The notes below the pieces were generated by a model. It was not told the origin of the DNA, searched no databases, and saw only the letters and a program-made list of their open reading frames with translations. Both the position numbers and the translations under genes were made by a program. A stretch of DNA of 49,653 bases from an uncultured Clostridia bacterium. Lineage in GTDB: Bacteria; Bacillota; Clostridia; Oscillospirales; Acutalibacteraceae. The stretch lies in the NCBI GenBank assembly GCA_945863885.1, contig CAMAZY010000020.1, positions 1 to 49,653 on the forward strand. Direction: 5' to 3'. Positions 2,765 through 45,390 of this stretch are shown here, in pieces. Position 1 is the stretch's first letter; every line of letters starts with the position of its first letter.

Positions 2765-2885
2765 ATCAATAAGCGGTTATTCGGCAGGCGCGCCATCCTC
2801 CTGCATCTCTCGGGTTTCCCCTGTCAGTACCATCGGCGTGTGGTCGACGCGAAATTTACCACCTCGAATAACCTATTCTTATCCT
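2731..2885 (-). ncRNA. Stand-alone structured RNA with 5S-like segment
   Basis: This RNA gene has no open frame but has a full transcription unit: consensus promoter (2892-2920), predicted start near 2885 and terminator at 2731-2764. The core (2775-2873, 99 nt) is closed by a perfect 9-bp stem, GGTTATTCG with CGAATAACC. Inside are a GTGGT/ACCAC hairpin, a CGCC/GGCG stem and an apical GGG-GAAA-CCC hairpin. The segment GCCGATGGTACTG matches the loop E/helix IV strand of many clostridial 5S rRNAs, and GAGAG on the other side recalls the partner strand. However, the 5S loop C/helix III arm (CCGAACACGG...) is absent and the molecule is about 20 nt too short. It could be a degenerate 5S copy or an unrelated RNA class. 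I do not recognise a riboswitch, SRP, 6S or tmRNA signature. Confidence 0.65.
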
Positions 2886-12732: not shown

Positions 12733-13467
12733 TTATACGTTTCTGCCAATTCCGGTTCTTGAAGAAGCGGAAAAACGAGGAGAAGAGGCAGGTCCCTTCG
12801 ACTTTGCCACAACGATAACCAGCGCCGTTGCAACACAGAGAAAGAAGAAAATCCAACCGAAAAAGCCAAGCTTAAAGGGGCTGTAATCCAAATAGCCGGT
12901 AACATCATCAAGTTTTACAAAAAATACGATCGTTCCGATCAGATAGATAACAAACGAGTAAATAACCGACGCACCTGCAACGATAAACTGCGTCATATCA
13001 ACACCTTTTTTCTTAACAAAGGCGTTATAGCCAATAAACGCAATCGAAGCAATCATGAGAACAGGCGCAACATACAAAAGGAACTTCAAAAAGCCAATTC
13101 CGCCGCTTTTACCCCATTCTTCTTCACCGAATCTGATGGCGGCCCAGATCGTATATTTTGACAGAATATAATCCTCGCCTCTTGTATTGAGCTTGAAATT
13201 TCCTGCGCAGTAAAGAATCGTGTTCAGAAGCAACATACCCATGCTGATCAGAGACCAGACGGTTCCCGGCGTAAACGTCAGTGTAAATCCGTTCTGCAGC
13301 GGATGAAATCCGTTCTTTACCGGAGGTTGGGCTCCCGTGCCGCCCGAAAATCCCTGTGTAGAAAATCCCGACGATGCGCCGCCCGCATCCACCTGTTGTG
13401 CTCCGCAAATCGGGCAGAATTTCTGTCCGTCTGCAATTTCCTTTCCGCAACTACTGCAAAAAGCCAT
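12733..13467 (-). CDS. Zinc-ribbon membrane protein, paralog B
   Basis: A 244-aa paralog of the gene at 11759-12505, with the same architecture. The zinc ribbon CSSCGKEIADGQKFCPICG is at residues 4-22, then a Gly/Ser/Phe-rich linker to about 60, four hydrophobic segments, and a short Ser/Arg tail after VVAKSKGPASS. Overall similarity to paralog A is moderate (roughly half the residues by eye) but very high in the last two membrane segments. The linkers differ completely. Each copy has its own full promoter and terminator, so they are tandem monocistronic duplicates, not an operon. Function is unknown. A membrane stress or signalling role is only a guess. Confidence 0.85.
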   Translation of the reverse strand: MAFCSSCGKEIADGQKFCPICGAQQVDAGGASSGFSTQGFSGGTGAQPPVKNGFHPLQNGFTLTFTPGTVWSLISMGMLLLNTILYCAGNFKLNTRGEDYILSKYTIWAAIRFGEEEWGKSGGIGFLKFLLYVAPVLMIASIAFIGYNAFVKKKGVDMTQFIVAGASVIYSFVIYLIGTIVFFVKLDDVTGYLDYSPFKLGFFGWIFFFLCVATALVIVVAKSKGPASSPRFSASSRTGIGRNV

Positions 13468-19619: not shown

Positions 19620-19646
19620 CCGTTTAGGAAAAAAATTATTATTTGT

Positions 19647-20767: not shown

Positions 20768-20822
20768 AAACAGCTGACCGTTTGCACTATGTCAGCCGCA
20801 ATTACGCATTACGCATTCCGAA

Positions 20823-30783: not shown

Positions 30784-33700
30784 TTATTTCACTTTAACGC
30801 TCTTGACGGACGAGAATTCACCGTAAATCTTCTGACCGTCGATCAGCTTATATCCTCTGACCTTGAAATAATAGGTCGTGCCTTTCTTCAGACCGGTCTT
30901 TACATACGATTCCGTATTCGAGTCGACCGTGACAAAGACGCCGTCAACATATCCGGCAGAAGCTCCGTCAAAATAGAAGCCGGTTTCTTCATAACTACCA
31001 TAGTTACTCTTTTGGGTTGCTATTTTTTTATAAGAGTTTCCGGATTTCATATAGAACTCATAACCGCTTGCATATTTGTCGGTCGCATAAAGACTCGCCT
31101 TCCCCTTACCGGCTACTACCTGAAGCTTCGGAGCCGCAGGAGCCGTTGCCGTCTTGACCATCGTATATCCGGTCGAATACGCCTTTTTCTGATCGATCGT
31201 CTTATACGCTGTCACCTTGATATGATATGTTCCGCCCGGCGTAAGCTTTGTAAACGTATAGGTGGTGTTGGCCGTGTAGGCATTCTTGATAGCATATCCG
31301 TCTTTATCGCAAAGCGTGACCCGATAGCCGGAAGCGCCCGTTACCGCTTTCCAGGTTGCCTTGATTGCGGTGGTCGACTGCTTAACGGCGATTTTGCTCG
31401 TTTTACCCGGAAGGATGTAGAAATACAGGGTTTTGCTTCCGCTGTAATTTCCGGTGAGCGTTACGGTAATGGAATATTTCCCGGTGTTCTTTCTTGCTGC
31501 GGGGGCCTTAAGGGTGTAATCTCTGTTCTTTACAAGAACCTTTCCCTTGCTGTCCTTGACTGTAATCTTCGGCGTCTTGGTATTCCCGTCATAGGTATAT
31601 TTCGTTGCTGAAAGCGTAATTGTGCTGACTTTCGGAATGACTGTCGTCCTGATCGTTTTCTTGCAGACAGAGCAGGCGGAAACAATCTTGCCGTCCTTAC
31701 CGGTTGTTGCCTTTGTGACGCCGTCCTTGACGGTGTGGCTCTTTTTCGCAACCGTCTTCTGTTCAACAAGAACGGTACCGCAAACGGAACAATGTTTCCC
31801 GGCTGTAAGTCCTTCTTTCGTACAGGTTGCGGCAACAGCCTTATCGGTTACAGCCTTATGAGCGGTTTTTTCAATAGTCTCCTTTTCTCTGCTGAGTTCA
31901 ACATGACAAGCCTTGCAATATACAACGGATTCGTAGGTGCCTTCCTTTGTGCAGGTCGCTTCGACTATGTTTTCTCTGACCGCCTCGGCGGCGATATGAC
32001 CGTGTGCCGAACCGGTATTGACGATCGTATCGGTTTCGTCGCAGCGGTCACACTTTGCGGTCTTGGTTCCGTCTTTTGTGCAGGTTGCGTTGCCGTCGGC
32101 AATATAATTGGTGAAGCTATGGCCGAGTTTCGGGGTATCCACAAATTCTCTGCTCAGTTCATCACCGCAGACCGAGCAATATACAACAGAATCATACCAG
32201 CCGTTTTCGATGCAGATAGCCGGCACTTCGCATTCTTTTACAGCTTCGGCAGGAACATGACCATGTGCCGAGCCGGTATTGACGATCGTATCGGTTACGC
32301 CGCAGCGGTCGCACTTTGCGCTCTTCGTTCCGTCTTCGGTACAGGTTGTGTTTCCGTCATCGATGTAATTTGTGAAACTGTGACCAAGCTTATCGGTATA
32401 ACCCTTCGTACGACTGATCTCTGCCTGACATACCAAACAGTAGACAACAGAATCGTATGAGCCGCCGTTGGTGCAGGTAGCTGCCCATTCATTTTCAATC
32501 ACCGGGTCTGAAGCGATATGTCCGGTTGCCGGAATCACTTCGTGACCTTCAACCCAGATTTCACAATACGGACAATAGAGTCCGTAAGTATAGCCCGGTT
32601 CTGTACAGGTAGCATCCTGTTGCCTTGTGTCTTCATTATACGGATGAGAACACGGAATCTCGATAATCGAGACATTTTTGTTTTCAAAATACTTCCAGCC
32701 GGTTGTGTTCTTAACGGTTGTTACCTCTGCAAGTAAACTGCATTCATTGAAGCTGTTGGACTGAATGCCGATAACAGTATCGGGAATATTGATTTTCTTA
32801 AGCTTGACACAGCCGTCAAAGGCATAAGAATCAATTATCATGAGACCCTGCGGAAGAACAATTTCCTCCATATTTTCACAATCTTTAAAAGCATACGAGC
32901 CGATTTCCGTAACACTCTGCGGCATCGTTACACTTTTAAGTAATTTTGCCTGAGCAAAAGTGTTTTTCGGGATCATCTGAATACCGTCTTCAAAAACAGC
33001 CGTTTCAAGTCCGCTGTTATAGAACGGATGGGACGCCGCTTTCAAGGTGTCCGGCAAGGAGACCTGCTTTAACTTTACGCAGTTTTCGAACAGACGGTGA
33101 CCCAATTCCTGTACATTCGAAAAATCAACCGACGCAAGCTCTCCGCAATTCAGGAAAGCGTAATCACCAACCGAGATAAGAGTTTCCGGAAAAGCCATTT
33201 CTGTAAGAGAAGAACAACTGTTGAATGCGTAGGTGCCGATACTTGTCACGCCCTCGGGAATCACTATTGATTCAAGGCTGCTGCAAGTGTCAAATGCGTA
33301 GCTGCCGATTGTTGTGACCGTATCCGGAATGAATACATTTTTCAAAGCCTTTGCATCGCCACAGGCTTTGTTCGGGATAACGAGTATTCCGTCCGCAAAA
33401 GTTACGGTTTCAAGTCCGCTGTTATAGAACGGATAGGACGCCGCTTTTAAGGTGTTCGGCAAGGAGACCTGCTTTAACTTTACGCAGTTTTCGAACAGGC
33501 GGTGGCCTAATTCCTGTACGTTCGAAAAATCGACCGATGCAAGCTTGCTGCAGTTAAGGAAAGAATGATCGTCAACGCTGATCAGAGACGACGGAAAAGC
33601 AAATTCCGAAAGGGAGGAGCAATCGCTGAATGCGTAGGAGCCGATGCTTGTTACACCCTCCGGGATCGCAATTGTCTCAAGGCTGCTGCAATCGTCAAAT

Positions 33701-34260
33701 GCATAGTTACCGATTGTCGTGACCGTGTCCGGTATCGAAACATTCTTCAGCGCTTTTGCCCCGGAACAGGCCTTGTCCGGAATACCGGTTATCCCGTCTT
33801 CAAAAATCACCGTTTCCAGTCCGCTGTTATAAAATACGGCCGCAGCGCTTCTGACGGTTTTCGGTATCGTAATCTGCCGAAGCTTTCCGCAGTTTTCAAA
33901 TGCTCTGTATCCGATTGTCTGTACATCAGAAAGCACGACTGATACAAGTTCGGCACAACCCAAAAATGCATGATCTTCGATCACCCTTACTGTCGAAGGG
34001 ATGATGATTTCTGTTATTTTATCACAATTTTTAAACGCATAATCCCCGATTGCCGTGACGGTGTCACCGGCAATTTCGGACGGAACCGTAACCGTTCCCT
34101 CGGCGGTATTTGAAACGTCGGTAATGACTACCGTTCCGTTTTCATAGCCGTATTCGAAAATGCCGCTTTCATCATAAGCCGCAAACGACACGACCGGCAG
34201 GCACTGAACGACTGAAACAGTCATAACCAATGCCATGAGTAATGATAAAACTTTTTTCAT
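30784..34260 (-). CDS. Secreted BspA-type leucine-rich-repeat protein with Cys-rich and FN3 modules
   Basis: A 1158-aa secreted protein. Signal peptide residues 1-27 (MKKVLSLLMALVMTVSVVQC). Residues about 60-520 carry roughly 20 BspA/LRR_5 repeats of about 23 aa of the kind AFxxCSSLxxIxIPxxVTxIG. About seven CxxC modules follow at about 530-890, each like TCTEDGTKSAKCDRCG or YCSVCGDELSRE. An Ig/MBG-like domain then starts at TYDGNTKTPKITVKDSK, and two FN3 domains end the protein, the last with an extra 25-residue insert around GFYFDGASAGYVDG. BspA repeats occur in adhesins of oral and gut anaerobes (known). Even numbers of Cys pairs in an exported protein suggest zinc binding or disulfides. 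It follows lemA by 85 nt with no clear terminator, so it may belong to the DUF3137-lemA transcript. Confidence 0.87.
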   Translation of the reverse strand: MKKVLSLLMALVMTVSVVQCLPVVSFAAYDESGIFEYGYENGTVVITDVSNTAEGTVTVPSEIAGDTVTAIGDYAFKNCDKITEIIIPSTVRVIEDHAFLGCAELVSVVLSDVQTIGYRAFENCGKLRQITIPKTVRSAAAVFYNSGLETVIFEDGITGIPDKACSGAKALKNVSIPDTVTTIGNYAFDDCSSLETIAIPEGVTSIGSYAFSDCSSLSEFAFPSSLISVDDHSFLNCSKLASVDFSNVQELGHRLFENCVKLKQVSLPNTLKAASYPFYNSGLETVTFADGILVIPNKACGDAKALKNVFIPDTVTTIGSYAFDTCSSLESIVIPEGVTSIGTYAFNSCSSLTEMAFPETLISVGDYAFLNCGELASVDFSNVQELGHRLFENCVKLKQVSLPDTLKAASHPFYNSGLETAVFEDGIQMIPKNTFAQAKLLKSVTMPQSVTEIGSYAFKDCENMEEIVLPQGLMIIDSYAFDGCVKLKKINIPDTVIGIQSNSFNECSLLAEVTTVKNTTGWKYFENKNVSIIEIPCSHPYNEDTRQQDATCTEPGYTYGLYCPYCEIWVEGHEVIPATGHIASDPVIENEWAATCTNGGSYDSVVYCLVCQAEISRTKGYTDKLGHSFTNYIDDGNTTCTEDGTKSAKCDRCGVTDTIVNTGSAHGHVPAEAVKECEVPAICIENGWYDSVVYCSVCGDELSREFVDTPKLGHSFTNYIADGNATCTKDGTKTAKCDRCDETDTIVNTGSAHGHIAAEAVRENIVEATCTKEGTYESVVYCKACHVELSREKETIEKTAHKAVTDKAVAATCTKEGLTAGKHCSVCGTVLVEQKTVAKKSHTVKDGVTKATTGKDGKIVSACSVCKKTIRTTVIPKVSTITLSATKYTYDGNTKTPKITVKDSKGKVLVKNRDYTLKAPAARKNTGKYSITVTLTGNYSGSKTLYFYILPGKTSKIAVKQSTTAIKATWKAVTGASGYRVTLCDKDGYAIKNAYTANTTYTFTKLTPGGTYHIKVTAYKTIDQKKAYSTGYTMVKTATAPAAPKLQVVAGKGKASLYATDKYASGYEFYMKSGNSYKKIATQKSNYGSYEETGFYFDGASAGYVDGVFVTVDSNTESYVKTGLKKGTTYYFKVRGYKLIDGQKIYGEFSSVKSVKVK

Positions 34261-34329: not shown

Positions 34330-34351
34330 GCCTGATTCTAAGCAATCAGGC
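34330..34351 (-). other. Hairpin at the lemA stop
   Basis: GCCTGATT/AATCAGGC stem with a 6-nt loop that contains the lemA TGA stop in its first arm. No U-tract follows, so read-through into the LRR gene is likely; it may tune expression of the downstream gene. Confidence 0.45.
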
Positions 34352-34894
34352 ATTAAAAGAAAGCGTCACGTCCTGCTTTTCGGTTTCGGTAGCGGTGAAG
34401 TATTCTTCCGCAGTGACATTCATGATGCTTGCGACAAAGCAGCTCGGGATCGATTTGATCTTTCCGTTGTATTGTGAAACCTCGTTGTTGTAAAGTCTTC
34501 TTGTTGCCTGGATGGTATTTTCAATGTCATTGATCGATTCCTGAAGCTGAAGGAAGTTGGTGTTTGACTTAAGCTCAGGATATTGCTCTGCGATAATTCT
34601 GATATTGTCAATGGCGTTGCGCTGTTCGCTTTCAACCTGTGACAGCTCATTGAGATTGCTGCCGGCTCTGATCTGAGCGACGCCGAGATAAATTTTCGAT
34701 TCCTGACCGATGACGCCGTTGACGGTCTGATTCAGCTTTTCAAGAGTTGCTCTTCTGTTTGCCAGTGCGATCTCAATACCGGATCTCTGCTTTTCGATTT
34801 CTTCCTTTTGTCTGTTGAAGTAGTTGCTTGTTTTTACAAAGTAAATTCCTACGATTGCCGCAATAACAATAATTCCGATGATTAAATCCTTCAT
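34346..34894 (-). CDS. lemA: LemA family membrane protein
   Basis: A 182-aa protein with an N-terminal membrane anchor (residues 4-20, LIIGIIVIAAIVGIYFV) and the helical LemA domain, including NYFNRQKEEIEKQRSGIEIA, YPELKSNTNFLQLQESIND and RRLYNNEVSQYN. The LemA family is widespread but its molecular role is unsettled; in several bacteria it is encoded beside envelope-associated membrane proteins. It follows the DUF3137 gene by 12 nt, a known pairing. Start ATG with GGAG 8 nt upstream. Confidence 0.93.
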   Translation of the reverse strand: MKDLIIGIIVIAAIVGIYFVKTSNYFNRQKEEIEKQRSGIEIALANRRATLEKLNQTVNGVIGQESKIYLGVAQIRAGSNLNELSQVESEQRNAIDNIRIIAEQYPELKSNTNFLQLQESINDIENTIQATRRLYNNEVSQYNGKIKSIPSCFVASIMNVTAEEYFTATETEKQDVTLSFNA

Positions 34895-34906: not shown

Positions 34907-35932
34907 TTATCTGATTGTTTGAAAATTTGAAAGCGGAAGGCCTTCTATAAGTTTTATAATTGCGTTTACCGTGTCTGCCGTTATGCTCTTCAGACAGTCA
35001 TCGGTATACAGCTCTTTATTCTTTGCCATTTTGGAATAGAATTTATACCGTGGATTCAGGTTGAGATCGGAATAACTCAAATCAATATTGATCACATTCC
35101 GGTTCAGTTCCATATCCTTGATTCTGTGGATCTTTCCGTAAGCCGTAATCGTTTCAAGCACATCGGGAGTAAGAGCCTTGTAAGCCGTCAGCTCATCTTC
35201 CGAATAAACCAGGTAATCAAAATCCTGCCGGTCCATTTTTATCCGGACAAGACCCTCTTCTTTCGGGACCTCATATTCGCCGGACATTTTATTCAACAGC
35301 TTTGAGGCTCTCTTCAGTATTCCTTTTTCATTGAACAACAGCTTATGAAGCTTTATTTTTGAATCAGCTCTGTTTTTGCCCAAGTATTGAACCGACACAT
35401 CCGAATCAATCGTCTCTGTCTGATAATCAACGACTTTTCCGCTCTGTGTTGTTGTTGTCTGAGAAACAACCGTTGTTCTTTCTTTATACAGCTTATAGGG
35501 AACCCCGTTGTATTTCCCCTGCAAGTTGATCCATCTGCTGTACAGGATCTGACCCGGAAAGACTTCTGCTTTTCCAAAGCCTTCATTTGTTTTGCTTGAG
35601 CCGGTTGCCTGAAGCTCTGCTTTTACGACTTCAAAGAATACCTCGTCGTAAAAACTGTTTTTCGCTCTCTTGAGAACAAGCCTGGCTTCTTTTTTGAATT
35701 TCCTTGAAATGAAGCCGAGCACGATCGCCAGCACCGTAATCAGAAAACCGATTCCGAGAATCATCTCATTGTTCGTACTGTTTGAAACAACCAGAAGGGC
35801 AAGTCCCGCAAGTAAGAAGAGCAGCGACAGCAGCAGGAAGATTCTTCGTTTTGTTTTGATCGGAGCCAGTTCGGATTCAACAGAATCGAAATAGCTCTCT
35901 GCGATTTTTTCGTAACTTGTTTTGCTTTCCAT
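34907..35932 (-). CDS. DUF3137 domain membrane protein
   Basis: A 341-aa protein. Two hydrophobic segments near residues 29-50 and 56-76 are followed by a soluble part with the DUF3137 pattern: GFGKAEVFPGQILYSRW (approx. residues 118-134), VPYKLYKERTTVV, then a region of conserved Asp/Tyr residues. Families with DUF3137 commonly neighbour LemA genes and are thought to act at the membrane; no enzymatic motif is visible. First gene of an operon with lemA. Its promoter carries a direct-repeat operator at 36140-36169 identical to that of the LytTR response regulator gene. Start with GGAG 6 nt upstream. Confidence 0.85.
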   Translation of the reverse strand: MESKTSYEKIAESYFDSVESELAPIKTKRRIFLLLSLLFLLAGLALLVVSNSTNNEMILGIGFLITVLAIVLGFISRKFKKEARLVLKRAKNSFYDEVFFEVVKAELQATGSSKTNEGFGKAEVFPGQILYSRWINLQGKYNGVPYKLYKERTTVVSQTTTTQSGKVVDYQTETIDSDVSVQYLGKNRADSKIKLHKLLFNEKGILKRASKLLNKMSGEYEVPKEEGLVRIKMDRQDFDYLVYSEDELTAYKALTPDVLETITAYGKIHRIKDMELNRNVINIDLSYSDLNLNPRYKFYSKMAKNKELYTDDCLKSITADTVNAIIKLIEGLPLSNFQTIR

Positions 35933-36104
35933 GTCATTCTCCGTTCTGCCGTCGATATCTGTCAGTTTACCATGAAACCCGACGGCGATTTTTTTACTTT
36001 TTTTCTGAAAAAAATCCTTGAAAGGCTAAATCAAAACCGAGCTCATTTTTAGAACCATCTCCTTTTTTCGTTGGTTTTTTTCGGTTTCGTTCCTTGTTGA
36101 CCCT

Positions 36105-36133
36105 ATGATATACCGTCTGAATCTTCGTTTCAA
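36105..36133 (-). promoter_or_regulatory. Weak promoter of DUF3137-lemA
   Basis: TTGAAA (36133-36128), 17-bp spacer, TATCAT (36110-36105) on the minus strand. The start near 36098 leaves a leader of about 165 nt. The -10 and -35 are off consensus, as expected for an activator-dependent promoter. The rest of the 405-nt gap holds the operator and the terminator of the gene at 36338. Confidence 0.65.
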
Positions 36134-36139
36134 TAGGAA

Positions 36140-36169
36140 AGCAACGAACGCACTTTTTCGAGCAACGAA
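36140..36169 (-). promoter_or_regulatory. LytTR-type direct-repeat operator, site 1
   Basis: Two exact copies of TTCGTTGCT on the minus strand with a 12-bp spacer (21-bp period). The proximal copy ends 6 bp before the -35 box of the DUF3137-lemA promoter. The same 9-mers and geometry precede the LytTR response regulator gene. Confidence 0.82.
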
Positions 36170-36246
36170 AACTCGTTACCGTTGCATTTTTTGAAAAACA
36201 GCCCTGAATTTATGTGCTCCTGTCTGCCCTGACGGAAGCCTTGGAA

Positions 36247-36292
36247 CAAAAAAATCAGCCATACAAGGCACATAACTGCACTTGTATGGCTG
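36247..36292 (-). terminator. Terminator of the LRR-transglutaminase gene
   Basis: A 12-bp stem CAGCCATACAAG/CTTGTATGGCTG with a 13-nt loop, followed on the minus strand by ATTTTTTT. Confidence 0.9.
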
Positions 36293-36337
36293 TTATCAGA
36301 TTGACTGAACGGGCTTTATGGCGGAAAGCAGACGGAA

Positions 36338-39300
36338 TTACTTTTTCTTTCCGAAAAGCCTTGCCAGAAATCTGCTGATTTTACCGAAGAACTGCTTGAT
36401 CTTTGCAATGAAAGAGTTTTCCTTTTTCCCGATCGTCGTTCCGCATTGGTCACAGACTCCGTCATTGTTTTTGTCGCTGTGGCCTGTTGCCGGGATCAGT
36501 TCCGGCTCGCTGAAATTATGCTCTTTACAGCGTGAGCAATACTCATAAGACGTCAGACCTTCTTCGGTGCAGGTGGCTTTCCGTTCCGGCACCGGGGTTC
36601 TGTACTGTTCTTCGTGCTTGCAAAGATTCTTGTTGCACCACTGGCAGCGGATTGAACCGGAAAGCGCCGTATGCCCGAGCTTACAGTTTCTGCTGAATTC
36701 ATTTCCGCATTTCGGACATTTATATTCCTCCTTGCCCGTACCGGAGCAGGGCTGTCCCGTATAGCCTATGAGCTCAAGAATATGACCGCAGCCTCCGTCA
36801 GCGATATAATCGCTTTCGGCAAAGCTGTATGCCTTAATTTCTGCGGGAGTCAACGCCCAGTTTTCTTCGTTCTCGTAAACCGGCGTAAAGGCGATATAGT
36901 CGTTCCCGATAAACTGCGCTTCCACGGAAGACTTCAGGAAATAGAAGACATCGCCCCGTGAGGAATCGTCTTCATCGGCGGCAAGGTAGGTATCAAGGTA
37001 ATACCATTTATCCGCTATCTTGACGATGTTGCAGGCATGAAGCAGCTTATCGCTGACAACGACACGGGTATCAAGACCGGCTTCAAGGGCAAGACGGTAA
37101 AACGCAAGAGAAAAGCCTTCGCACACGCCGCTGTTATTCACAAGTACCGAGTAAGCAGAGTGATGTACGTCGTTGTATGCCTTGTCATTCGGCGAAACGG
37201 CATTCACGTTGTCGCAAAGATACTCAAAAATCAACCGTGCCTTTTCATATTCCGGCTTATCGTTCAGTTGAAGAGATGCCGCAATTTCCGTAAGCTTGTC
37301 GGAAAGCAGGCTTTCCTGCTCAGCCGTGGTGTAATACTCAACGTCGAGCACTAAATATCCGTCGTCTAAAACCGCTCTGTTGATTTTCTTTACTGACCAC
37401 ATGAGGTTGTCGCCGGCCGCAGAATCCGCCTTGTCATAAGCAAAAACAACATCAAAGAACTTCACAAAATCGTTGTTGGACGTGAGTGCCGGAGCACCCT
37501 GCGGATAGGACAGAATGATATAACGATTTCTGTTTATCATCTGTCGGCGAACATAGTCCGCCACCGCTTCATAGCTGTCGGAGGCTTCAAGCGCAACAAA
37601 GCTTCTGTTATATTTTTCGGCATATTCCTGAGCGGTTGAAAGCTCGTAGCCATAGATCGTTGCACCGGACGGAATTGCTTCTTCGGTGTCGGGGATCGCA
37701 CAGCTTCTGTCTCTGATAATAAACGTCTTGAGGTTGTCTATGGCATAGAAAGCATTCTTTCCGACATCAGTCAGTCCGTTCTTCATATCAATCGTATGGA
37801 GAGCGGCCATATCGCGGCAAAAATACGAAGGAATCGTAGTGCCTTCAAAAATGATTGAGGTAATGTTGGAGCAGCCTTTGAAGGGGCTTGCTTTTCCGGT
37901 AGTATATTTCAGTGTTTCCGGTACCGTGATGACGGAAAGTCCGGTACACCCCGAAAACGCACTCGCTTCAAGGGTTTCAACCTTGTTAAGGTCAATGGTT
38001 TTGAGTGTTTTACAATTTGCAAATGCACTGTTTCCGATCGTTTTGACCGTATCCGGAATCACGATTTGTGTAATGGCCGGAGCAGATTTACAGACATTAT
38101 TTGCAATCTTTACCGTTCCCTCGGCAAAGATGACTTTCTTTAAATTCTTACAACCGGTAAAAATAGTGTCAGTGCTTACTATTGCTAAGGTTGCAGGAAT
38201 AGTAATTTCGCTAAGAGATTTGCAGTTAAGAAAAGCATGGACACCTATTTCCGTTATTCCTTCATTCAAATCGATTGATTTCAATAAGGTGCAATTATCA
38301 AACGCATAGCTGTCAATTACCGATACACTATTTGGTAAACTGACACTCTCCAAAACGCCGCAGTCTGCAAATGCCTTGTATCCGATTTCAGTAACGGTTT
38401 CAGGCAAAATAACCTCTTTCAGTTTTGAAGCGCCAACGCAAGCATGATCTACAACCCGAACGGTTCCCTGGGCAAAAGATATTTTGACTAAATTATCACA
38501 GCCGGTAAAAATGCCGTAATCACTCATATCCGTTACCGTTGAGGGAAATGTCAATTCAGTAAGAGAGGTACAATTAAGAAAGACATGGGCACCGAATCCC
38601 GTTATGCCTTCATGCAAATTTGATTGATTCCAATGAAGTACAATCACCAAAAACATAACTATCGAGCACTGTTATACCCTGTGGCAGATTGATACTCACT
38701 AAAGATTCACATCCCTCAAAAGCACCGCTCCCGATCTCAGTGATGTTTTCAGGCAAACGAATACTAAGTAAAGAGTTGCACCCATTAAAAGCATGATGTC
38801 CGATTTCGATAACAGACTCAGGCAGAACAACTTCCGTTACAGCTTGGGCATTGTTGCAAACATTGTCCGCAACTTTAACAGTTCCCTCGGCAAAAATGAC
38901 CTTCTTTAAATTGTCACAACCGGTAAAAATGCCGTAATCACCTGTCACTTCTGTCATGGTTGCAGGAATAGTGATTTCGCTAAGGGCTTTGCAGTTAAGA
39001 AAAGCATGGACACCGATTTCCGTTATACCCTCATTCAATTTAATTGATTTCAATGAAGTACAGTTTTCGAACGCATAGCTATCAATTATCGACACACCAC
39101 TTGGTAAACTGACACTCTCCAAAACGCCGCAGTCTGCAAATGCCTTGTATCCGATTTCAGTAACGGTTTCAGGTAAAACTACTTCTTTCAATTTTGAAGC
39201 TCCGACGCAAGCGTAATCTACAACTCGAACGGTTCCCTGGGCAAAAGATATTTTGACTAAATTATCACAACCGGTAAAAATGCCGTAATCACTCATATCC

Positions 39301-39650
39301 GTTACCGTTGAGGGAAATGTCACTTCAGTAAGGGAGGTGCAATTAAGAAAAGCATGGGCACCAAATGTCGTTATGCCCTCATTCAATTTAATTGATTTCA
39401 ACGAAGTACAGTTTTCGAATGCAGATGAACCGATCGCCATCACCGTATACCCGCCGAGCGTTTCGGGAATGGTCAGATTTTCAATGACCTCTCCGCTGAA
39501 GCCCGTTACGGTTGCCGTGGAGTCGCTGTTTACGGTATACGTCAGCCCGGCGTCCGAATAAACTTGTGTTGCGGCGCCCGCAAAAATACACGAGCTTGCC
39601 GTCAGAACAGACATGATGAAAATAAACAGAATTGAGAGCTTTGATTTCAT
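36338..39650 (-). pseudogene. Secreted BspA-LRR/transglutaminase-like protein, frameshifted
   Basis: Two overlapping frames form one gene. Frame 1 (38610-39650) has a signal peptide (residues 1-28) and BspA LRR repeats, ending FGDCTSLESIKFA. Frame 2 continues LHEGITGFGAHVF without loss. One extra T in the AAATTTG run at 38617-38619 explains the break; removing it gives 1103 aa. After the LRRs comes a transglutaminase-like domain. In frame-2 numbering its triad is Cys512 (NNSGVCEGFS), His540 (KLLHACNIV) and Asp555 (WYYLDTYL). Then come CxxC modules and a basic amphipathic tail ending FFGKISRFLARLFGKKK. A 200-residue LRR block is duplicated, and the frameshift lies between the copies. ATG at 39650 overlaps the kinase stop (ATGA) and has AGGAGG 7 nt upstream. 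Secreted transglutaminase-like domains can be peptidases or crosslinkers; the substrate is unknown. A shorter product from frame 1 alone is possible. Confidence 0.85.
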
Positions 39651-40969
39651 GAAACTTCCTCCTGTGATTGCAGTTTTATACTGATATCGGCAACGAACTC
39701 ACGGTCATCACACGACAGACGGAACTTTCCGCCGTACTTTTCTGCGATTCTGCCGACATTTTTCAGTCCGATACCATGGTTTTTCACGTCCGATTTTGAC
39801 GTCTTGATTCTGTTGTTTTTTATCACAACACGCTCGTTCACCGGATTCACAATCGAAAGAACAAAGAACAGCTCACGGGCATTCGCTTCAATCCGGATGT
39901 ACTTTTCGCCGCTCAGGCGCTTTGTACTTTCGATGGCATTGTCAACAAGGTTGCCCAGAATCGTGCAAAGGTCTGATGAAGCAATCCCCTTTTCCGGAAT
40001 TGTGCCGGTGAACGTCATTCTGATTCCCAGCTCTTCGGCAAGAGCGTTTTTGTTGTTCAGCATAGCGTCGGCGACAAAATTTCCGGTTGAAATCTGCCTT
40101 TTCTGAACACCCGAGGTGATCTTGATCGTCTCAAGATATTCTGCCGCCTCTTCATTCTTTCCGGCGTTGAGCAAAGCCGTGACAACCAACATGTGATTTT
40201 TGTAGTCATGCCGGAATTCTCTGAGCTGCTGATCGCTCGCAAGCATTCTTTCATAGTTTTCGTGCTGTTCGTTAAGCTGCTTGAGAATCTGCGTCTGCTG
40301 ATAGGAAAGCAGAAAGATTTTGTATACAAAATAAATGATACAGATAAAAATGCTGAGTGCCGAAAGAGAAAAGAAAATATTCAGCGGCAATTCATTGTCA
40401 TATCCGACATCGTGCTTGGCGAAATCCGCAAAAAAGACCGTGAAGTTCAAAAGGAACCAGACCGGCAGCAGCCACTTCGGAACCGTTTCATAAACATTTT
40501 TTATCAGATTGAAATTCGAAATCTTATTTGCAATCAGAATAGCGACCGTAATTGTGGTATACCCGATGATTGTTGCCGTATTATCCACGACGACCCATTC
40601 GATACTCCGGGCATCATTCTTGAAAATGAACCCGATAAATCCGATCAGTGCCTCCGAGGAAGACATAACCAGCGCTATTGCGCCGAGTGACTTCCAAAAT
40701 TGCCCCTTTGTGTTCAGAATGACAAACACAAAAATCGGCGGCAAAAGCATTGTCATTGTTTCCGGATCAAGCAGACTGTCTTCGGAAAAAGTACCGAAAT
40801 ATGTCCATAGTCCGCTGCCTACGGCAGTCAGAAAGCAAATAACGGACACGACAATCGTGACGCTTCTTTTGCGTTCCTTCAACCCGAAAACGGCGGTGAG
40901 AACCGAAATAAGGCATATCACCTCCACAATATCGTACAGGCCGCACAAAATTGATTTTGCCAACAGCAT
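39647..40969 (-). CDS. GHKL-type sensor histidine kinase (LytTR partner)
   Basis: A 440-aa kinase of the AgrC/ComD-like HPK10 group. Six or so hydrophobic segments (within residues 5-225) form a membrane sensor. The phospho-accepting H254 is in LREFRHDYKNHM. N340/N344 in LGNLVDNAIEST form the N box, and HGIGLKNVGRIAEKYGG the G box. In this group ligands are often peptides sensed through the membrane domain (known); the ligand here is unknown. It follows the response regulator by 82 nt, a gap filled by a repeat element, and its TGA overlaps the ATG of the LRR-transglutaminase gene by 4 nt, so the two are translationally coupled. Start ATG with GGAGG 6 nt upstream. Confidence 0.92.
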   Translation of the reverse strand: MLLAKSILCGLYDIVEVICLISVLTAVFGLKERKRSVTIVVSVICFLTAVGSGLWTYFGTFSEDSLLDPETMTMLLPPIFVFVILNTKGQFWKSLGAIALVMSSSEALIGFIGFIFKNDARSIEWVVVDNTATIIGYTTITVAILIANKISNFNLIKNVYETVPKWLLPVWFLLNFTVFFADFAKHDVGYDNELPLNIFFSLSALSIFICIIYFVYKIFLLSYQQTQILKQLNEQHENYERMLASDQQLREFRHDYKNHMLVVTALLNAGKNEEAAEYLETIKITSGVQKRQISTGNFVADAMLNNKNALAEELGIRMTFTGTIPEKGIASSDLCTILGNLVDNAIESTKRLSGEKYIRIEANARELFFVLSIVNPVNERVVIKNNRIKTSKSDVKNHGIGLKNVGRIAEKYGGKFRLSCDDREFVADISIKLQSQEEVS

Positions 40970-40985
40970 TTATCTTCCTCCTTTT

Positions 40986-41053
40986 AGGCAAGCTCTAAAA
41001 ACATCCCGGCATTCATCATAATGCCAAACGCCTTGAGTTTTTGGAGCTTGCCT
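40986..41053. repeat. Inverted-repeat element, copy 2 (68 bp), inside the two-component operon
   Basis: AGGCAAGCTC...GAGCTTGCCT is a perfect 10-bp terminal inverted repeat extended imperfectly by TAAAAAC/GTTTTTG. The element lies between the response regulator and the kinase. The regulator's stop codon TAG (41054-41052) is formed partly by the element's end. It matches both ends of copy 1 (19647-19806) joined together, as a deletion derivative would. Confidence 0.8.
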
Positions 41054-41753
41054 ATACTTTATACTTCAGATAGCTGAAATAGCTTTGTTCAAATGCGTCA
41101 TATCTCTTCGGACTGATCGGAACCCAGTCCCCGTTGGTAAGCGTAATATCCTTGCGGTTGAAATTGGAAACATACTTCAGATTAACGATAAACGACCGGT
41201 GGGTACGGAAAAACCGGGGATTGTTGATTTCGGTTTCGTATGCGGAAATCCCTTTGTTGGAGCGCAGTTTTCCCGATGTGGTTGTGATCTCGGTATATTT
41301 CTTCTGCGCTTCTATGTAAAGTACTTCGTCGATATCCAGACAATAATTCTGGTCGCCGAAGCTGACAACCATTTTTCTGTCGGTCTGATAGATCGTGACA
41401 AAGCTGTCAAGCGCTTCGGTGAGAACCGTTTCGCCTATCGGTTTTACAAGATACCGGAAGGTGTTCAACGAAAAACTTTCAAACACATGCTCCGGAAAAG
41501 AAGTAAGAAATATGATAAAGATGTCTTTGTTCTCCTGCCTGAGTTTTTTGGCGAACTCAATTCCGTCATCATCACCCGGTATACTGTAATCAAGAAACAC
41601 AAGGTCATAGTCATGATTCTTAATGTAAAAGCTCCTGAAATCCTCAAAGGCATCGATTCCGCAGGCAATATTCGCATTGTTCATGAACTGAACAGACATG
41701 GATTTAATTTCTTCCCGTAATTCTTTTTCATCATCGCAAATTGCAATTCTCAT
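41052..41753 (-). CDS. LytTR-family response regulator
   Basis: A 233-aa two-component regulator. Receiver domain residues 1-120: acidic pocket D7-D8 in ICDDEKE, phospho-acceptor D55 in LVFLDYSIPG, conserved T and K in FLTSF and LVKPIG. The LytTR DNA-binding domain (about 130-230) contains YIEAQKKYTEITTTSG, RSNKGISAYE, RFFRTHRSFIVNLKYV and the terminal PISPKRYDAFEQSYFSYLK. LytTR domains bind paired 9-bp repeats about 21 bp apart (known), and exactly such a pair lies upstream at 41877-41906. Start ATG with GGGAG 9 nt upstream. First gene of the operon with the kinase and LRR-transglutaminase genes. Confidence 0.95.
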   Translation of the reverse strand: MRIAICDDEKELREEIKSMSVQFMNNANIACGIDAFEDFRSFYIKNHDYDLVFLDYSIPGDDDGIEFAKKLRQENKDIFIIFLTSFPEHVFESFSLNTFRYLVKPIGETVLTEALDSFVTIYQTDRKMVVSFGDQNYCLDIDEVLYIEAQKKYTEITTTSGKLRSNKGISAYETEINNPRFFRTHRSFIVNLKYVSNFNRKDITLTNGDWVPISPKRYDAFEQSYFSYLKYKV

Positions 41754-41841
41754 TTTGACATTCTCCCTAATCTGAAAATTGAAAAAGGTAAAATTTCGGA
41801 TCGGTATTTTTCTGAACGGTTTTCCCTTTTTTCGTAAAGCA

Positions 41842-41870
41842 ATGATACAGTATCAAAATCATGATTACAA
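41842..41870 (-). promoter_or_regulatory. Weak promoter of the response regulator operon
   Basis: TTGTAA (41870-41865), 17-bp spacer, TATCAT (41847-41842) on the minus strand. The -10 hexamer equals that of the DUF3137-lemA promoter and the -35 is equally weak. Confidence 0.68.
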
Positions 41871-41876
41871 CCGCAA

Positions 41877-41906
41877 AGCAACGAATATTTTTTTTGAAGC
41901 AACGAA
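41877..41906 (-). promoter_or_regulatory. LytTR-type direct-repeat operator, site 2
   Basis: Two exact copies of TTCGTTGCT with a 12-bp spacer on the minus strand. The proximal copy ends 6 bp before the -35 box, the same geometry as site 1. It implies autoregulation of the two-component system. Confidence 0.85.
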
Positions 41907-45195: not shown

Positions 45196-45390
45196 TGTCT
45201 AGAGGACACTCACACAGTTTTATTCGCCTTTCGGCGAGTGATATTGCTTCGCAGTTATATAATGCTACGCATTGTGATATTGTCCTTCGGACAGTTTTAT
45301 GCGAATAAAATAACACTGAAATCGAAGATTTCAATATCACTATGCCGAAAAGTGCATAATATCACTCTTTCCGAAGGAAAGAATATCACT
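45196..45390. repeat. Array of mini-hairpins with 3-nt loops
   Basis: At least six short stem-loops of 3-7 bp with mostly TTC, TAC or GAA loops follow each other: CGCC/GGCG at 45225, TGC-TTC-GCA at 45245, AATGC-TAC-GCATT at 45261, TGTCC-TTC-GGACA at 45281, GAAATC-GAA-GATTTC at 45318 and CTTTCC-GAA-GGAAAG at 45367. In the left half they are joined by GTGATATT, in the right half by its inverse AATATCAC, so the whole block is one large imperfect palindrome centred near 45305. There is no open frame. It occupies the gap between the M28 gene and the DUF2812-like gene. Confidence 0.8.

Follow-up and report, generated by a model that had tools for sequence, protein, structure and literature searches.

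A 49,653-nucleotide stretch of an uncultured Clostridia bacterium (contig CAMAZY010000020.1 of assembly GCA_945863885.1, hereafter the window) carries two identical pairs of the 9-bp direct repeat TTCGTTGCT. One pair precedes an operon for a response regulator with a LytTR domain, a GHKL sensor kinase and a leucine-rich repeat (LRR)/transglutaminase protein, and the other precedes the genes of a DUF3137-like membrane protein and LemA. Comparison with related genomes indicates that this LytTR two-component system very probably regulates itself and one adjacent cluster of surface and membrane genes. All four repeats lie on the minus strand, with 12-bp spacers and a period of 21 bp at both sites (36140-36148/36161-36169 and 41877-41885/41898-41906). 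The weak −35 boxes TTGAAA (36133-36128) and TTGTAA (41870-41865) each lie 6 bp downstream of the proximal copy of the repeat and are followed, after 17 bp, by TATCAT (36110-36105 and 41847-41842, respectively). This layout agrees to the base with that given for both repeat pairs and both promoters in the initial annotation, which erred in calling the promoters unlinked, because they are 5.7 kb apart on the same strand and belong to adjacent operons. The flanks and spacers of the two sites are unlike each other.

Of all 9-mers made up of three or more different letters, TTCGTTGCT alone formed identical pairs in the window (periods of 10 to 60 bp) at two places more than 200 bp apart, and none of 200 dinucleotide shuffles contained any 9-mer paired twice at period 21. 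Overlapping identical pairs at period 21 numbered 9 in the window versus a shuffle mean of 0.23; they came from four places, namely, both operators, position 13285 (dropped, as it lies inside a zinc-ribbon gene) and position 20800 (dropped as a simple repeat). The genome that contains the window (2.6 Mb, 67 contigs, 98% completeness; window in contig C20) had exact TTCGTTGCT pairs with an 11–13-bp spacer at just the two window sites, with one match for the reversed-pattern control, and the 21-base pattern, TTG included, gave no further site in this genome when up to 3 mismatches were tolerated (control, 1). A relaxed search with shorter repeats and 2 mismatches was discarded, since its 80 matches, versus 61 for the controls, were mostly background. 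The paired TTCGTTGCT operators are not due to chance. A random genomic distribution, named beforehand as an argument against a regulon, is contradicted by the genome-wide scan, which finds the pattern at both window sites alone.

Operators in related genomes

The comparison covered 34 genomes of the genus, the own genome included; this set overlaps with a second set of 80 loci taken from GTDB. Close relatives of the regulator (46–47% identity, E < 1e-60) were found in G001, G004, G018, G019, G022 (two copies) and G028. The nearest relatives under a taxon name are encoded in metagenome-assembled genomes labelled Ruminococcaceae, Clostridiales or Clostridia, some of them from cattle or goat rectum. 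In each of the six genus genomes, an operator pair of the TTCGTTCCC form, its distal copy somewhat changed, precedes the regulator gene. A first search of the seven genomes with a close regulator (own included) returned 23 rows versus 6 control matches; 20 of the 23 passed a stricter repeat definition, all with TTG exactly 6 bp past the proximal copy, and the rows of L084, L086 and L087 were rejected, those of L084 and L087 also lacking TTG at 6 bp.

The pattern TTNGTTNCN-N12-TTCGTTNCN-N6-TTG detected 25 sites in nine of the 34 genomes, namely, two in the own genome and two to four in each of eight relatives, versus one match for the reversed-pattern control. The repeats and TTG are common to these sites by construction, since the pattern contains them, whereas neither the −10 box nor the gene start depends on it. 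A TANNNT box was present 15–17 nt past the −35 box at every site (16 at 17 nt, 8 at 16 nt and 1 at 15 nt; best of five spacings tried), and an open reading frame (ORF) of at least 80 amino acids (aa) started within 200 nt at 24 of the 25 (at L133, the script chose an internal start of the regulator gene). Sites were present in all seven genomes with a regulator match below 1e-60 and in 2 of the 27 others (Fisher p = 6.7e-6). The sites are thus conserved in relatives and track the close regulator, and the comparison supports the proposal of a real regulon made in the initial annotation. The two genomes that have sites without a close regulator match are G009 and G020. In G009, the contig ends just upstream inside an LRR-like gene with the same C-terminal tail, so its regulator gene is probably on a missing contig. 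At the level of the order (394 genomes, own and other genera), the near form with 1 mismatch was found in the own genome, G423 and G417 (control, 1). In G423, from another genus, a TTCGTTCCC operator and its promoter occur in three near-identical tandem copies, about 230 bp apart (L144:8159, 8387 and 8617).

The form of the operator corresponds to the loop before the last LytTR helix, which presumably contacts DNA, as in AgrA. The loop SPKR of the window regulator occurs with TTCGTTGCT, S[SA]QK of the clade at 47% identity with TTCGTTCCC, and SRRN (L153, L154 and L156) with ACCGTTCAT-type repeats; L145 has GPKN, and L146 (SAKN with TTCGTTCCC) and L149 (SSIV with a degenerate site) are partial exceptions. 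For the clade at 37–40% identity, ACCGTTCAT-type pairs before TT were sought in eight upstream regions (seven distinct, as G033 and L156 are one contig) with a script scored against that consensus and hence biased towards it. At least 7 of 9 positions matched in both repeats in G033, L156 and G020, with 10 bp to TTG, and in G006 and L152, with 11 bp and a period of 20; the pair was weaker in L153 and L154, and none was found in G025. The window motif corresponds to positions 5–13 of the 13-bp form ACCGTTCATTCCC, so the window sites would lie 10 bp from the −35 box in the canonical register. LytTR autoregulation proceeds through 9-bp repeats, mostly with 12-bp spacers and mostly 10 bp from the −35 box, according to PMC6193735, and the geometry at the regulator's own promoter, with two 9-bp direct repeats 12 bp apart upstream of the −35 box, is in line with the earlier assignment of LytTR-type operators. 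The comparison supports the view that promoter spacing and the position of a site after the LRR gene are kept while the operator sequence shifts with the regulator clade.

A de novo search for repeats of period 20–22 bp before regulator genes (no more than 1 mismatch between the paired copies, and a tail resembling a promoter) gave 6 cases among the 77 of 80 GTDB upstream stretches that were long enough, versus about 0.5 expected from shuffles, and was set aside as too weak for a general claim.

The recurrent site behind the LRR gene

The LRR gene was found by tblastn in 11 of the 80 GTDB loci (a regular expression found 2 of 80 and was dropped, as it overlooked L145 and other known cases). 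All seven loci whose regulator is at least 42% identical have the LRR gene directly downstream; of four loci at 37–39%, three have it on the other side and the fourth, L152, is cut by a contig end; and among the remaining 69, one has it within 4 kb. By this distribution, the LRR gene marks the regulator clade. A second operator is present 56–168 bp past the LRR stop codon in nine loci (the window, L089, L090, L091, L092, L093, L099, L138 and L145), and the contigs of L098, L146 and L149 end before this position.

Regulator genes stand behind 8 of the 25 genus sites. The 17 others precede proteins with a signal-peptide or lipoprotein N-terminus in nine cases (read from the sequence; at L119, the signal starts from an internal methionine), a zinc-ribbon protein in five (the four checked have one strongly hydrophobic segment after the zinc ribbon), a DUF3137 membrane protein in one, and a WG-repeat protein with one hydrophobic segment in one; one site (G020, C223) has no ORF of 80 aa. 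The term envelope regulon thus fits 15 or 16 of the 17 target sites, the gene varying by species. In L145, the locus with the closest regulator relative (56%), a lipoprotein gene follows the second site. None of 35 other genomes from the family contained a match to the DUF3137 protein (lemA itself was not searched for in relatives), and as far as searched, DUF3137-lemA looks like a regulon member specific to this genome. The initial annotation was right that an operator and promoter precede these genes, whereas the DUF3137 cargo is not conserved (0 of 35 relatives).

Contig C122 of G020 matches the window with 86% identity over 200 bp of operator 2, promoter and leader (~35999-36198); this was the sole match among the 34 genomes, with scoring limited to 22 first-look candidates per genome. 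G020 also shares a candidate leader mini-ORF with its AAGGAG box, in front of a different gene, which encodes a secreted protein with an N-terminus matching that of the window LRR-fn3 protein (75% over 28 residues). Further on, past an opposite-strand ORF, lies a gene for a transglutaminase/fn3 protein with 56% identity to the window LRR-fn3 protein over 469 residues. This arrangement, with a secreted gene behind the conserved promoter and leader, speaks for the LRR-fn3 gene as a target. In the simplest reading, one lineage would have gained DUF3137-lemA by insertion between the promoter and the secreted gene, or the other would have lost it. Elsewhere in G020 (L102:8640-9440), past the kinase gene, three consecutive stretches without a long ORF carry paired CGTT repeats, −10-like boxes and stem-loops, as judged by eye; two of them share TTTCAACACCCTTCATAA, which is not in the window, and they are possibly LytTR-driven small RNAs.

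Behind the second operator of G001, G009 and G022 (two copies) lies a row of genes in one direction that is not in the window. The row begins with a zinc-ribbon/TPR membrane protein, a second zinc-ribbon protein, a RING-type protein, a YukD-like ubiquitin-like protein (Ubl) with a membrane segment and a ThiF-type E1; the RING gene of L091 was not separately resolved by the ORF call. The longer contigs (L091 and L092) continue with a lipoprotein-like gene and with genes for an E2-FHA protein, a trypsin-like protease and a JAB protein. Pfam assignments were made on representatives (RING in L138; YukD and E2-FHA in L092; ThiF in L091 and L092; trypsin and JAB in L091) and extended to the other copies by sequence. 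The E2 sequence contains HPN followed by a cysteine and the JAB sequence HTHP...S..D, which we take to be the E2 and JAB motifs. In the PADLOC scan, the E1 and JAB genes showed similarity to the E1-E2, BilD and JAB families and the trypsin-like gene gave protease-type matches; neither the Ubl nor the E2-FHA protein was matched. Across the 34 genomes, the full-length Ubl is present in four copies only, each of them behind the operator. One more strong match, in G005, is without the Ubl part, and all others, own genome included, are weak and partial. The row would form one transcript, because its genes have the same direction and gaps of 7–72 bp in L092. A LytTR-kinase-LRR switch with an exchangeable cargo slot, which in three relatives holds a membrane-anchored ubiquitin-like conjugation operon, is a tentative reading of these data, to which we give somewhat less than even chances.

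Mechanism, alternatives and gene content of the window

According to the proposed mechanism, the GHKL membrane kinase would sense a signal, possibly together with the secreted LRR/transglutaminase protein, and would phosphorylate the regulator. Judging by the geometry, regulator dimers would bind the paired direct repeats (period 21 bp) immediately before the −35 box and help RNA polymerase at two promoters. Promoter 1 would serve the own operon and provide positive feedback, and promoter 2 would drive DUF3137-lemA and possibly the LRR-fn3 gene behind it; across the genus, the operator after the LRR gene would act as a recurrent slot with downstream cargo differing by species.

The position of the paired repeats upstream of a weak −35 box suggests activation. 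The −35 boxes of the genus regulator promoters have on average 5.62 of 6 matches (8 sites), whereas those of the targets have 3.88 of 6 (17 sites), a difference to be expected if the regulator is made at a basal level and its targets depend on activation. The window departs from this trend: its regulator promoter has TTGTAA and its DUF3137 promoter TTGAAA. The alternative that the operators mediate repression (negative autoregulation), or act only with the unphosphorylated regulator, draws on the near-consensus −35 box of seven of the eight regulator promoters, which should hardly need help, and on the fact that the sign is not given by sequence alone. It is nevertheless unlikely, since the repeats lie upstream of, and not over, the −35 box, the activator layout of HdrR (PMC6193735), and since the target −35 boxes are the weaker ones.

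The own genome has three other LytTR domains (on C5, C11 and C38), and LytTR sites resemble one another, so the window sites could be operators of one of those regulators. We consider this improbable: the sites track the clade of the adjacent regulator over the 34 genomes and lie directly before it in seven, and no TTCGTTGCT pair (up to 3 mismatches, TTG at 6 bp) is near the other three LytTR genes. Even less credence is given to the second site being a non-regulatory leftover of a duplication of promoter 1. The shared TATCAT and the identical geometry would fit such an origin, whereas the flanks and spacers differ, many genomes retain the operator pair and its spacing to the promoter in front of other genes, and the copy in G020 keeps promoter and leader.

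Several observations weigh against self-regulation coupled to a second, cargo-bearing site. The exact TTCGTTGCT form is rare, being limited to the own genome, half of each L145 site and G020, and G020, although it has the operator, encodes a regulator of just 40% identity with another repeat at its own promoter. L151 (42% regulator identity) has no site in the 260 bp before the regulator gene and its second site is 0.9 kb past the LRR stop codon, L149 has only a degenerate site (by eye), and L094 is without a second site after the LRR gene. The LRR gene is, moreover, frameshifted in the window assembly: it consists of two overlapping ORFs in different frames, with the frame change at 38610-38656, which may be either an assembly error or a real lesion. 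In L090 and L151, a single ORF contains the LRR and transglutaminase-like domains. Of the LRR/transglutaminase gene named in the initial annotation, both domains were found, in a gene split by the frame change.

The features discussed are listed in Table 1. The LRR start and kinase stop codons overlap by 4 bp in the window, L090, L091, L092, L145 and L151; the overlap is absent in L146 and L149. The LRR protein, with its gene overlapping that of the kinase, is a candidate signalling partner of the kinase. LRR proteins of the genus (L089-L093, L099 and L138) often have short, basic, amphipathic tails, e.g., FKKLFRLFKKK, and that of the window has RFLARLFGKKK. The gap between the regulator and kinase genes, which holds a strong palindrome in the window, is 11 bp in L090 and L092, and a 30-base part of the palindrome occurs again at 19645 with 3 mismatches. 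On the minus strand of the 85-bp gap between lemA and the LRR-fn3 gene, no promoter- or terminator-like match was found, and the LRR-fn3 gene is possibly co-transcribed with lemA. Folding of the leader mini-ORF as an attenuator gave nothing unusual (z = 0.37). The Rfam scan matched nothing near the operators; elsewhere in the window, a Gut-1 RNA (45215-45285, plus strand) and a skipping-rope RNA (2776-2872, minus strand) were above threshold.

Table 1. Features of the window and of the ubiquitin-like row in related loci
Feature	Position	Strand	Basis
Operator 1, TTCGTTGCT-N12-TTCGTTGCT, upstream of response regulator	41877..41906	-	Repeat search; regulator-gene sites in 7/34 genus genomes, own included
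Promoter 1, TTGTAA-N17-TATCAT, 6 bp after operator 1	41842..41870	-	Sequence
Response regulator, receiver and LytTR domains, 233 aa	41052..41753	-	Pfam PF00072, PF04397, above cut-off
Regulator-kinase gap, strong palindrome (−36.6 kcal/mol, z −6.5)	40970..41051	-	Fold computation
GHKL sensor histidine kinase, 440 aa, four hydrophobic segments in N-terminal half	39647..40969	-	Pfam PF14501, hydropathy, FRHDYKNH stretch
Secreted BspA-type LRR gene, 5' part	38610..39650	-	Pfam PF13306, signal-peptide-like N-terminus
Same LRR gene, 3' part in other frame, LRR and transglutaminase-like domain	36338..38656	-	Pfam PF13306, PF01841
Operator 2, TTCGTTGCT-N12-TTCGTTGCT, upstream of DUF3137-lemA	36140..36169	-	Repeat search
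Promoter 2, TTGAAA-N17-TATCAT, 6 bp after operator 2	36105..36133	-	Sequence
Promoter-plus-leader stretch, 86% in G020 before other gene	35999..36198	-	Alignment
Candidate leader mini-ORF (6 codons) after AAGGAG box	36026..36046	-	In both leader copies (window, G020)
DUF3137-like membrane protein, two hydrophobic segments	34907..35932	-	25.2 bits vs. Pfam cut-off of 26.1
LemA family protein, 12 bp after DUF3137	34346..34894	-	Pfam PF04011, 124 bits
Large secreted LRR-fn3 protein, 85 bp after lemA	30784..34260	-	Pfam scan
Ubiquitin-like row (relatives)	L092:1400-12023; L091:8260-18714; also L138, L099	- (L092)	Directly behind LytTR operator

Relation to known systems and significance

Agr/Com-type systems such as AgrC-AgrA combine a GHKL kinase with a LytTR response regulator and paired repeats at 21 bp. 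The window resembles AgrC-AgrA in having a GHKL kinase, a LytTR regulator and 21-bp repeats and differs in that the operon includes an LRR gene and that no AgrB was detected among the 10 window proteins scanned with profiles around it. In the same genome, AgrB genes adjoin the LytTR systems on C11 and C5, which makes an Agr peptide less likely as the signal of this kinase. The peptide-type sensor of the initial annotation is retained to the extent that the kinase is of the GHKL family (a family inference only), and the result for AgrB speaks against it.

The HdrRM and BrsRM LytTR regulatory systems of Streptococcus mutans (PMC6193735) are similar to the window in having 9-bp direct repeats with a 12-bp spacer upstream of the regulator's own −35 box and also at targets. 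Autoregulation of LytTR systems by such repeats is already published there. Those systems consist of a regulator and a membrane inhibitor and have no kinase, whereas the window regulator has a receiver domain and a GHKL kinase, the third gene encodes a secreted LRR/transglutaminase protein, and the cargo consists of surface and membrane proteins. The row found in relatives resembles bacterial Ubl clusters (Iyer et al. 2006, PMC1779556) in that the cargo of G001, G009 and G022 has a Ubl and an E1-like protein, and that of G001 and G022 also E2 and JAB. It differs from those clusters in its YukD-like Ubl with a membrane segment, in the RING, trypsin-like and zinc-ribbon membrane proteins of the row, and in the LytTR operator in front. 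Searches of open-licence PubMed Central papers yielded no description of an LRR partner, of a recurring second site with changing cargo or of the ubiquitin-like row; PMC6222199 deals with an OmpR-type regulator and was set aside.

Thus, the system would represent a bounded regulon of uncultured gut Clostridia, with two promoters in the own genome and two to four sites in each of eight relatives, whose operator can be read by comparison. It would tie large secreted LRR/transglutaminase proteins to a sensor kinase via an overlapping gene, and its promoter slot may serve as a natural experiment in the gathering of different surface genes. The same operator may provide a regulatory entry point to a row of bacterial ubiquitin-like genes with a membrane anchor; if the tentative reading of that row is true, ubiquitin-like modification at the envelope would be under the control of a two-component signal sensed with a secreted LRR/transglutaminase protein.

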